DNA from: Coriobacteriia bacterium
GTDB taxonomy: Bacteria > Actinomycetota > Coriobacteriia > Coriobacteriales > Eggerthellaceae
DNA: 64,000 bases
Assembly: GCA_030523425.1 (NCBI GenBank)
Contig: JAUNIP010000002.1
Location: 1-64,000 of the forward strand
Direction of reading: 5' to 3'
The number at the start of each line of letters is the position of its first letter. The stretch's first letter is position 1. The notes beneath the pieces are model-generated. The model was not told where the DNA came from, made no database searches, and worked only from the letters and a program-made list of their open reading frames with translations. The position numbers and the translations under genes are program-made. Shown in pieces: positions 6,967-37,284 of the stretch.

Positions 6967-7088
6967 CCTGCGCCCGCATCAGGCGAAGATCAGACCGAAA
7001 GCATCGCACACAAGCGCCCCCGACCAGTCCAACGACCTACTGCGCCCGGACCAAGGTCGCCCGGCGTTCCTGAAAAGGAGGCCCCGAA

Positions 7089-7376
7089 GCAAAAAGCCGG
7101 CCGTGAACGAACAAACGCGCCCGCGGCGGGGCGACGGGCACTGTCGGGGTCGTAAAAAGCCAGCTGTGAACGAATCGGCGCTTGCCAAAAACGTAAAAAG
7201 CCAGTTATGAACGAATCGATCCAGCGCCTTGCCCCCAAAAGGGCTCCAAGAGGGCGTTTGTTCGTTCACGACCGGCGTTTTACGACCCTGCGTCCCACGC
7301 CCGGCAAGGCAATTCGTTCACGATTAGCTTTTTGCTTTCCCGCGTCCGCCCGATTCATTCACAGCCCGCTTTTTGC
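7089..7376. repeat. Six-motif palindromic repeat element, copy A
   Basis: This 288-bp element fills the 450-bp space between two convergent genes. It holds three direct copies of a motif (A-run, then about 10 nt, then GTGAACGAA) with cores at 7103, 7166 and 7207 (third variant ATGAACGAA), then three inverted copies with TTCGTTCAC cores at 7261, 7313 and 7354 (sixth variant TTCATTCAC). Motif 1 (7096-7118) is complementary to motif 4 (7254-7276) at 22 of 23 positions. Core spacings are 63, 41, 54, 52 and 41 bp, identical to copy B at 36914-37201. Intervals are not multiples of three, which argues against a coding repeat. No known repeat family is recognised. Confidence 0.85.
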
Positions 7377-7416
7377 TGCCAGTCTCCCTGCAACAAGGGG
7401 TCCGGCCGCTTGCTGT

Positions 7417-24427: not shown

Positions 24428-27172
24428 CTACAAAATTCCTTGAACTGTTAACGCAGTTTCAAACACGGAACGTGCCTTGCCTGCGGCGTTTTCGCTTTTT
24501 TCCAGCGCCAGGGCAACCACCACGGTAGATCCGTTGGAAGGTGCCATGCCCACAAACCAGCTGTCGTCGCCAGCAGGGCTTTCGGCGGTGCCGGTCTTGC
24601 CGGCAATCTGCACGCCGCTTAGGGCCACAGCGGTGCCGGTGCCGTTGTTCACCACGCCTTCCAAAACCTTGCGCACGCGTTCGGCAGTGGATTGGCTGAT
24701 GGGACGGGCCAACACGCTGCCAGAAGCGGTGTAGCTCAGTTCGCCTTGTGCGTTGTGCACGCTTTGCAGCAGGTAAGGCTTCATCAGGGTGCCGTTGTTG
24801 GCAATGGCGCAGCCCACCAAGGCCATTTCCAGCACGCTTGCCTGCGGACCGGCGGGAGAGGTGTGTTCGCCTACGGGTTCGCCGGCAGCGGCCCACGCGG
24901 TTTCCCATGTGGTCATTTCGGCCGGGTCGGGCATCAAGCTGGTGGTCACGGGCAGTTCGAAGTCAATGCTTTTGTTGAACATGAAGGCTTCGGCCGTGCG
25001 CACCAGGGTTTGGGCACCAATTTGGACGCCCAGTTGGCCATACACGGTGTTGGAAGACAGCTCGGTGGCGCGGGCAAGCGTTATGGTGCCGTAGTCGTAT
25101 TTGCCGAAGTTGGTCACATCCGCGTTGCCTATTTCCATAGTGCCCGGGGAATCGAAGGTGGAGTTTTCGTCCGCCACGTTGTTTTCCAGCGCCGCCGCCA
25201 AGGAAACCATCTTGAAGGTGGAACCCGGGGCGTACAGGGCCGAAGTGGCGCGATTGTACATGCTAGACCCGGAAGAGCCATTGGTGGAAGTGTCCAACAG
25301 TGCTTCGAAGTCCGCCGCGTTGTAGGTGGGGCTGGAAGCCAAGGCCAACACGGCGCCGGTTGAGGGGTCTATGACCACGCACGCGCCTGTTTCGCCTTCC
25401 AGGGCAGCCTGGGCAGCCTGCTGGATCTTCGAATTGATGGTAAGCGTCACGTCGTTGCCGCTGGCGGTGGTGCCGGTGGCGGAAGCTAACACGTCGGACC
25501 ACGTGGCGAAGTTGCGCTGGCCTTTAAGGATGTCGTTGCAGGCCGCTTCTATGCCGGCTGTGCCATACTGGGTGGAATAGTAACCCACCACATGCGCCGC
25601 CATGGTGCCGGCGGGGTATGTGCGGCTGAAGGAGCCGTCGCCGTTGTCGGTGCTTTCGGCCAACACCACGCCGTCGTAGGTGGAAATGCTACCGCGCTTG
25701 GAATTCGCTTCCCGTGCTATGGTGTGGTTGTTGGAAGGCATGTTTTGGTAGGTTTCGGCGTTCACCACCATAATGTAGGTAAGGTTGGCTACCAGCGCCG
25801 CAATCATGATGGCAAACACCCAAATGGTGCCCGTTAAGCGCTTGCCCACGGCCACGCGGCCCAAGGTGGAATTGGAATGCAGCGAAGTGGTGGTGGCCAT
25901 TTCTTCGTTTACGCCGGTGGATTCATTGCTGCAGTGCAGCAGCAAGCCCACGATGATGAAGTTCGAAAGCAGGGAAGAGCCGCCCTGCGCCACAAAGGGC
26001 AAGGCCAAGCCGGTAAGCGGAATAAGCCGCGTGACGCCACCCACAATGATGAACGCCTGCAGCACCACGATGGCGGTCAGGCCGGCGGCTATAAAGCAGC
26101 TCACGTCGGTTTTCGCCCGCGCGGCGACGGTGAAGCTCCTGATGGCGAAGCACAGGTACAGCAGCAGCAGCCCGGCGCCGCCCAAAAGGCCCATCTCTTC
26201 GGCAATGGATGCGAAGATGAAGTCGCTTTCCACGATGGGAATCTGGTCGGCCATGCCATTGCCTATGCCTAGGCCTAGCAGGTCGCCGTCGGCCATGCTG
26301 AAGATGGCTTGCGTTAGCTGGTAGCCCGTGTCCTGCGCGTCGGCGAAGGGGTCAAGCCACGTTGCCACGCGGACCTGCACGTGGGAGAAGAAGATGTACA
26401 AGATGACGCCGGCCATGACAGCCAACACCAGCGCCACCACCAGGTACACTTTGCGCCCGGAAGCAATGTAGAGCATGATGATGAACACGAAGAACAGCAC
26501 CAACGCGCTGCCCAGGTCCTTTTCGAAAATGGCCACCGCCATGGCTATGCCCCACATAAGCAACAGCGGGATAAGCACGCTCACGTCGGGCAGGCGCACC
26601 GGCCCAATGCGCACGGTGAACACGGAAAGCAGTTCGCGGTTTTGCGCCAGGTAGCCCGCCAAGAACAGCACTATCAAAATCTTGGCAAGTTCGCCCGGCT
26701 GGAAGGAAATGCCGGCAACGGAAAGCCAAATCTTGCTGCCGTAGATTTCAGTGCCCACCACGGGCAGCAAGGGCGAAAGCAGCAATAGCACGCCAACAAG
26801 CATTAGGGTGTATTTGAAATTGGCGCTTCGGTCTATGTTTTTCACGAACGCCACAATGACCACCATGGCGGCGATGCTCAAAAACAGCCACACCACTTGG
26901 CGCGTGGCCAAGTCGGGCGCCAAGCGGGTCACAAACGCCAGGCCAATGCCGGAAAGCGCGAAGGCAATGGGCAGCAGCGCCGGGTCGGCATTCGGGGTGA
27001 ACTTGCGCACCGCAAGGTGTGCCAAAATGAACGCCGCGAACAGGCACACCGGCACGGCAACGGCGTTCCATCCCAAGGTTTCGCCTTGGGACAGGGCCAA
27101 CATGGCAAACAGCAATATGGCCAGCGGTGAAGCGATGATCAGCAGCACTAATTCCAGGTTGCGTCGCGTCAT
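24428..27172 (-). CDS. FtsW/RodA glycosyltransferase fused to a class B penicillin-binding protein
   Basis: The 914-residue polypeptide joins two enzymes that are normally separate. Residues 1-415 are a SEDS lipid II polymerase with about 10-12 membrane segments, catalytic-type FEKDLGSAL (Asp219), ESDFIFASIAEE (316-326) and PFVAQGGSSLLSN (392-404). Residues 447-470 add a membrane helix, and 480-914 form a class B transpeptidase with STFK (Ser651-Lys654), SSN (706-708) and KTG (859-861). It would polymerise and cross-link peptidoglycan in one chain, fixing the SEDS:bPBP ratio at 1:1. The ATG overlaps the PP2C stop (ATGA). In most actinobacteria rodA and pbpA are adjacent separate genes here. 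No frame break is seen at the junction. Confidence 0.95.
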   Translation of the reverse strand: MTRRNLELVLLIIASPLAILLFAMLALSQGETLGWNAVAVPVCLFAAFILAHLAVRKFTPNADPALLPIAFALSGIGLAFVTRLAPDLATRQVVWLFLSIAAMVVIVAFVKNIDRSANFKYTLMLVGVLLLLSPLLPVVGTEIYGSKIWLSVAGISFQPGELAKILIVLFLAGYLAQNRELLSVFTVRIGPVRLPDVSVLIPLLLMWGIAMAVAIFEKDLGSALVLFFVFIIMLYIASGRKVYLVVALVLAVMAGVILYIFFSHVQVRVATWLDPFADAQDTGYQLTQAIFSMADGDLLGLGIGNGMADQIPIVESDFIFASIAEEMGLLGGAGLLLLYLCFAIRSFTVAARAKTDVSCFIAAGLTAIVVLQAFIIVGGVTRLIPLTGLALPFVAQGGSSLLSNFIIVGLLLHCSNESTGVNEEMATTTSLHSNSTLGRVAVGKRLTGTIWVFAIMIAALVANLTYIMVVNAETYQNMPSNNHTIAREANSKRGSISTYDGVVLAESTDNGDGSFSRTYPAGTMAAHVVGYYSTQYGTAGIEAACNDILKGQRNFATWSDVLASATGTTASGNDVTLTINSKIQQAAQAALEGETGACVVIDPSTGAVLALASSPTYNAADFEALLDTSTNGSSGSSMYNRATSALYAPGSTFKMVSLAAALENNVADENSTFDSPGTMEIGNADVTNFGKYDYGTITLARATELSSNTVYGQLGVQIGAQTLVRTAEAFMFNKSIDFELPVTTSLMPDPAEMTTWETAWAAAGEPVGEHTSPAGPQASVLEMALVGCAIANNGTLMKPYLLQSVHNAQGELSYTASGSVLARPISQSTAERVRKVLEGVVNNGTGTAVALSGVQIAGKTGTAESPAGDDSWFVGMAPSNGSTVVVALALEKSENAAGKARSVFETALTVQGIL

Positions 27173-36586: not shown

Positions 36587-36661
36587 GGTCGATTGGCGCA
36601 GCGGGAGCGCAGGTGCCTTACAAGCACAAGGTCGGGGGTTCAAATCCCTCATCGACCACCA
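36587..36661 (+). tRNA. tRNA-Val(TAC)
   Basis: A 75-nt cloverleaf: acceptor GGTCGAT/ATCGACC, D-arm GCGC...GCGC, anticodon loop CTTACAA (anticodon UAC, codon GUA), TTCAAATC T-loop and encoded CCA at 36659-36661. Its last 21 nt are also the start of a 67-bp direct repeat. Confidence 0.95.
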
Positions 36662-36884: not shown

Positions 36885-36913
36885 TTCCCAGGGTCGGCAG
36901 GCGGGGGGCGGAA

Positions 36914-37201
36914 GAAAAATGCCGGCTGTGAACGAACAAACGACTTGCGGCGGGGTCTAGCGGGATTGGCCGGGTTGTAAAACGCTAGCTGTGAACGAAT
37001 CGGCGTATTCCGAAAAAGCAAAATGCTAATTGTGAACGAATCGGCCTGGCGGGATGCTCGTTGAAACCCTGCTCAGGCGCGTTTGTTCGTTCACAGCCGC
37101 TGTTTTTCGGCCAGACCGCGGCGGCCGGGAAGGGCAATTCGTTCACAATTAGCATTTTGCTTTTCTGCGCTTGTGCGATTCGTTCACAGCCCGTCATTTT
37201 G
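36914..37201. repeat. Six-motif palindromic repeat element, copy B
   Basis: Second copy of the element at 7089-7376. GTGAACGAA cores lie at 36928, 36991 and 37032 (direct), and TTCGTTCAC cores at 37086, 37138 and 37179 (inverted). Every core is exactly 29,825 bp from its counterpart in copy A. Motif 3 (37018-37041) is the perfect 24-bp reverse complement of motif 5 (37137-37160), and motif 1 (36924-36942) of motif 4 (37080-37098) over 19 bp. The spacers resemble copy A only moderately. It stands between the tRNA-Val repeats and a broken gene. Confidence 0.87.
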
Positions 37202-37284
37202 CGTCAACGCAATGCGCAGAAGCAGCGATAGCTAGGCGCCAGCCAACACGCAGGCCGTCCTTGAAACAGGCTATCGGCTGCCTT

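Follow-up and report, generated by a model that had tools for sequence, protein, structure and literature searches.

The locus studied here lies in a window of 64,000 nucleotides (the whole stretch of DNA that was analysed) from a Coriobacteriia bacterium of the family Eggerthellaceae, in which two elements, named copy A and copy B, each carry several inverted arms that resemble one another closely. The question raised by this locus is whether the likeness of the arms marks a structure that pairs with itself, as the first-pass annotation had proposed, or whether it comes from another property of the repeat. The features of the two copies are as follows.

36912..37202, + strand: copy B, whole element with six sites, ends set at the outer A-tracts
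36915..36936, + strand: B site 1, ACAAACG class
36979..36999, + strand: B site 2, 63 bp past site 1
37020..37040, + strand: B site 3, 41 bp past site 2; arm perfectly matched by site 5
37086..37106, - strand: B site 4, ACAAACG class, inverted
37138..37158, - strand: B site 5, 52 bp past site 4, inverted
37179..37200, - strand: B site 6, 41 bp past site 5, inverted
7088..7377, + strand: copy A, whole element
7091..7111, + strand: A site 1
7154..7174, + strand: A site 2
7195..7215, + strand: A site 3
7231..7244, + strand: A central small inverted repeat GCCC-CCAAAA-GGGC, kept, with weak covariation, in many copies
7261..7281, - strand: A site 4
7313..7333, - strand: A site 5
7354..7374, - strand: A site 6

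A repeat family with six sites per copy

A DNA search of the element's own genome (G000; 1.97 Mb in 92 contigs) with copy B as query returned 23 full-length or near-full-length loci. Copies A and B are two of these 23 intact copies, which together with contig-end pieces make up an intergenic, non-coding repeat of about 290 bp, dispersed through one bacterial genome in a total of about 25 copies. Coding sequence was ruled out, as almost every frame is interrupted by stops in almost every copy, and the fixed length of the repeat is thus not due to coding. In the full copies the site consensus reads GYAAAAnGCnnGYTGTGAACGAA; each site is bipartite and about 22 bp long, with an A-tract (GYAAAA), a spacer of 6-8 nt and then the core TGTGAACGAA. 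The core was observed, with a few changes, six times per copy, three facing three, in the arrangement > 63 > 41 > 55 < 52 < 41 <, where the spacings (63-41-55-52-41 bp) run from core start to core start. This six-site order is common to all full copies, and the spacing shifts, found in a few of them, do not exceed 1 bp. Two classes of sites were recognized, with sites 1 and 4 continuing as ACAAACG and sites 2, 3, 5 and 6 as ATCGG or similar, and sites 3 and 5 have in common an upstream A-run and AAAAAGCTAGT. Loss or degeneration affects site 1 more often than any other site (L016, L018, L020, L021 and L028), and three copies lack it altogether (L018, L028 and L021, the last of which runs into a contig end). 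Separately, a degenerate seventh site was noticed in one copy (L013:1755-1812), 63 bp beyond site 6 as a mirror of site 1, which suggests that the element was formerly more symmetric; a symmetric seventh site is absent from every other copy.

Among the 23 aligned copies, the sites have a pairwise identity of 0.78-0.84 as against 0.41-0.54 for the linkers, and linkers 2-3, 3-4, 4-5 and 5-6 each display one single length in 23/23 copies, the few 1-bp shifts falling inside sites in this alignment. Among the four pairs of copies that are most alike, differences were found at 20 of 407 positions in columns that the rest of the family conserves, compared with 106 of 409 in the most variable columns, and the few changes in the conserved columns indicate that constraint on the sites persisted after duplication. 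The profile search of G000 recorded the 23 copies at 152-191 bits; lower scores came from these copies again, matched in part or on the reverse strand, from contig-end pieces and from a solitary motif like site 1. An old inactive repeat would be expected to leave decayed copies behind, but this search found none, nor did it find a split copy enclosing a gene. The same-direction spacings of 63, 41 and 52 bp deviate by no more than 1 bp from multiples of 10.5 bp (about 6, 4 and 5 helical turns), a phasing that would arise by chance in about 1% of random sets of three spacings and that few independent spacings underlie. Invariant length and phasing together point to proteins bound on double-stranded DNA.

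The notable feature of this family is its fixed, phased six-site architecture without decay. With about even confidence, we read each copy as a probable DNA-level array for nucleoprotein assembly rather than a folded RNA, the array being either host-maintained or a transposon-end-like MITE. The copies share a common architecture, fixed spacing and protected sites, and are intact, non-coding and intergenic, from which we infer the binding of protein itself. Several copies of one protein would bind the candidate sites, lying on the same helix face with three facing three, the two halves of the array may be brought together in a synapse, and the copies would have spread early in their own lineage and been retained by selection since then. 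Resemblance between the arms of one copy would then be a by-product of short gene conversion, or of template switching, between similar sites and not what the array is for. If selection keeps about 25 arrays intact amid linker drift, the arrays probably serve the chromosome, and if they are selected, their binder should be findable by pull-down. Counted against the array are the ability of the element to fold as RNA on either strand, the covariation of sites 2-6 and 3-5, neighbour genes without a theme or a constant orientation, and the small number of spacings from which the phasing derives.

The copies lie between genes, and where both neighbours could be called, their orientations were ++ in 7 cases, -+ in 5, +- in 4 and -- in 1. 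The neighbour genes, as judged by inspection of their sequences, include those of DnaK-, TrkA- and phosphofructokinase-like proteins and show no common theme. An association with promoters, terminators or tRNA genes was rejected, given that gene orientation is mixed and that only 3/23 copies, including B, have a tRNA gene within the upstream flank retrieved. Copy B starts (36912) about 250 bp downstream of tRNA-Val (36587-36661), and in L013 and L017 the distance from a tRNA gene to the start of the copy downstream is about 130-145 bp.

Nine of the 23 copies are situated no more than 1.6 kb from a contig end (p 0.004). Several copies of the element are adjoined by another family of intergenic repeats (CCTGCGGGGGATGGCGGATTCCTTTCGGGCG in L007), at the following positions.

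L007:1817-1943: second repeat family
L010:18-144: second repeat family
L020:25-95: second repeat family
L022:1770-1839: second repeat family
L015:1-51: second repeat family

These adjoining repeats are a possible cause of the contig breaks near copies, and together with the contig-end bias they imply that the assembly may have collapsed near-identical copies. Again, the end of L087 (G000:C3), the start of L088 (G000:C12) and the end of L092 (G000:C83) harbor the same stretch of about 50 bp through site 2, and its occurrence at three contig ends indicates that at least two near-identical copies were merged or broken by assembly.

Possible transposon-like ends and distribution across genomes

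That the element is itself a non-autonomous transposon (MITE), with fused left and right ends, several transposase sites in each (Tn7-like or Mu-like) and spread in trans, is possible, and we consider it rather doubtful. About 25 dispersed copies with sharp ends and mostly unrelated flanks fit such an origin, and so does a feature of the MITE type, namely several inward-facing site-like repeats per end, three facing three, at fixed spacing. Mu-like transposon ends (MuA) bear similar inward-facing multi-site arrays. Tn7-like ends also carry arrays of spaced TnsB sites, and the element resembles them in having sites of about 22 bp, several per end, facing inwards, with the spacing being important (PMC11406308). 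Unlike Tn7-like or Mu-like ends or MITEs derived from them, however, the element has no cargo and a dispensable outermost site, and its ends read GYAAAA, not TG..CA. An rve-domain transposase was rejected as partner, since no PF00665 match was detected in G000, and the ends that were inspected by eye showed no sign of a target duplication. Mobility should require a terminal site, yet it is the outermost site 1 that is most often lost or degenerate, and decayed copies are missing despite strongly diverged linkers.

The site pattern and the family profile were applied to 140 genomes from 48 genera of the bacterial family, with stricter filters for the profile in this set, and the element was found in G000 only and in none of the 139 other genomes. 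This privacy to one genome of 48 genera, which agrees with a MITE, indicates that the spread happened within the element's own lineage. Four site-pattern matches in named genomes were rejected, none of them being the element: three are simple tandem repeats, and the fourth, in SAR324, proved to be a short run of a different TTCGTTCAT repeat. A 21.8-bit profile match in G002 lacked a site array. Phage or plasmid origin was likewise rejected, with no match among the phages, plasmids and viral contigs searched. The literature searched yielded no relevant paper on repeats in Eggerthellaceae and no description of this repeat family. The nearest genus is already distant, with 68-70% identity in the FtsW-PBP fusion protein. 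At 24428-27172 on the minus strand of the window, FtsW-like and PBP2-type transpeptidase domains are found in one frame of 914 aa, which was matched in 140/140 family genomes, in a few as split matches.

Inverted arms, folding and covariation

Read from the sequence, the arm matches reported by the first-pass annotation are correct. In copy B, 37018-37041 (GCAAAATGCTAATTGTGAACGAAT, at site 3) is the reverse complement of 37137-37160 (at site 5) over 24/24 nucleotides, and 36924-36942 (GGCTGTGAACGAACAAACG, at site 1) that of 37080-37098 (at site 4) over 19/19, while the 1/4 arms of copy A (7096-7118 and 7254-7276) agree at 22/23. By repeat search, the 3/5 arms of B extend to 34 nt at 94% and the 1/4 arms of A to 28 nt at 93%. 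The observation that arms match better inside than between elements also holds over the 23 copies, though by a small margin, sites 1-4 being alike at 20.6 of 26 positions within copies vs 20.2 between copies, and sites 3-5 at 21.4 vs 20.5. Most of the likeness of the 1/4 and 3/5 arms is class likeness, common to all copies.

A structured RNA, or a bidirectional terminator-like hairpin formed when the element is transcribed, would have 2-6 and 3-5 nested with site 4 in the loop, and seems unlikely. The element is comparable to structured non-coding RNAs and attenuator-like hairpins in its long foldable inverted arms and in some covariation of nested pairs. Against dinucleotide shuffles, the folding z-scores were -5.5 for the plus strand of B, -6.5 for the plus strand of A and -6.4 for the minus strand of B, and no shuffle folded as well as the elements (0/100 being stated for two of the three tests); an A-run and T-run at the hairpin base also agree with this reading. 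In the alignment pair counts, 3-5 and 2-6 were above 500/500 shuffles in both percent paired and covariation score, whereas 1-4 and the control 2-5 did not beat all shuffles. On the other hand, the covariation term of RNAalifold amounts to only -1.1 of -43.9 kcal/mol, no Rfam match was found on the element, and its orientation to genes is mixed. Unlike structured RNAs, the element is near-symmetric on both strands, and its unpaired linkers keep fixed lengths, which would be unexpected for RNA loops.

Sites that cannot pair with each other also co-vary. In the copy permutation with all columns, likeness within copies was strongest for 3-4, 3-5, 2-3 and 4-6, and with variable columns only, an excess was seen for 3-4, 1-4 and 3-5. 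Under a tree-aware null, in which each site column was simulated along a tree from the linkers (110 columns, poorly resolved) and 15 pairs were tested, the approximate z-scores were 3.8, 3.7 and 2.7 for the inverted pairs 3-5, 3-4 and 2-6, 3.0 and 2.9 for the direct pairs 2-3 and 4-6, and 1.75 and 1.05 for the weak pairs 1-4 and 2-5. The within-copy excess is real, yet unspecific to pairable sites, and its presence in direct, non-pairable pairs favours homogenisation, by template switching or gene conversion, over selected pairing. Homogenisation of inverted-repeat arms by template switching is known (PMC8604942), and compensatory-looking changes can come from the same process (PMC8794818). 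The inverted pairs would be explained by template switching and the direct ones by short gene conversion. For claims of structure in general, covariation of arms within one element calls for caution, as it can stem from template switching, and comparison with site pairs that do not base-pair exposes covariation of this kind.

With respect to the first-pass annotation, its view of compensatory change or intra-element gene conversion as the sign of a pairing structure is upheld as far as the within-copy excess survives the tree-aware null, but the step to pairing is weakened by the similar excess in 2-3 and 4-6. The pseudoknot of 1-4 crossing 3-5 was not borne out, the pair 1-4 being weak (p 0.04, with its covariation score reached by 55/500 shuffles), and in the nested scheme 1-6, 2-5, 3-4 the pairs 1-6 and 2-5 are unsupported. 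The covariation check that it had put forward, run on the copies of the element, showed that 2-6 and 3-5 covary and 1-4 does not. The nested pairing that covaries is 2-6 with 3-5, a scheme absent from that annotation.

REP-type repeats and a different array in a neighbouring genus

An origin as REPIN- or BIME-like repeats moved by resident RAYT-like (Y1) transposases is improbable. Three Y1_Tnp (RAYT-like) genes exist in G000 (C6:12516-12845, C50:12621-12956 and C61:430-759, in L094-L096), and the element resembles REPINs with their RAYTs in its conserved inverted arms, diverse interior spacers and persistence as a population in the genome. REPINs form a long-lived intragenomic population in which decaying REP singlets are typical (PMC8049555), but such singlets are absent from the element family, which moreover has six sites and not two. 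According to one description, inverted REPs flank RAYT genes in every case (PMC2817692), whereas the fetched flanks of the three Y1 genes contain no element sites, and these genes were rejected as partners. One core with 2 mismatches, without site context, occurs near the Y1 gene of L096, and the Y1 gene of L094 has an inverted repeat of about 100 bp on both sides. BIMEs, which have been proposed as protein platforms (PMC2817692), are like the element in being dispersed intergenic composites of regularly spaced units in opposite orientations. The units of the element are nevertheless not REPs, as each site combines an A-tract with TGTGAACGAA and is not a palindrome with a GTAG head; the six sites keep a single order and an unchanging spacing, in about 25 copies vs the usual >100 REPs.

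A neutral, old and functionless repeat, with arm likeness due to inheritance and template switching, was already disfavoured and is very improbable: it accords with homogenised arms (PMC8604942), with mimicked compensatory change (PMC8794818) and with the excess in non-pairable site pairs, but leaves the protected sites in close pairs, the fixed linker lengths and the missing decayed copies unexplained.

Concerning the preferred reading, that of an array for nucleoprotein assembly, a multi-site array search was carried out on some 300 kb from G115 and 400 kb from G078; the search recovers most of the G000 copies, and nothing else in the window. In G115, which belongs to a neighbouring genus, a separate dispersed family was disclosed, with palindromic CTATGnnnnCATAG sites spaced at 61-52-61 bp in C16, C19 and C62.

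L132:48-385 (C16): G115 array
L136:2134-2330 (C62): G115 array
L149:1439-1640 (C19): G115 array
L156:1500-1570 (C67): G115 array

The array in C16 has six sites, with extra spacings of 62 and 63, and is about 72% alike to that in C62, the three copies being diverged. This array occurs in number in G115 only and not so in G114, another species of the same genus, and it is not homologous by sequence to the G000 element. It repeats the same design, that of a dispersed array with a fixed spacing of about 5 to 6 turns, and the parallel may be a coincidence. Tentatively, both may belong to a family-wide class of chromosomal assembly sites, consisting of dispersed, long-lived arrays of 4-7 candidate protein sites at near whole-turn spacing, in which the site sequence and the binder would be replaced from genus to genus; the sole basis of this reading is the parallel between 63-41-55-52-41 with TGTGAACGAA in G000 and 61-52-61 with CTATGnnnnCATAG in G115. 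A further stretch of G115 (L130:260-680, in G115:C14) displays inverted pairs of the form TGTGnGAACG...CGTTCnCACA about every 40-53 bp.
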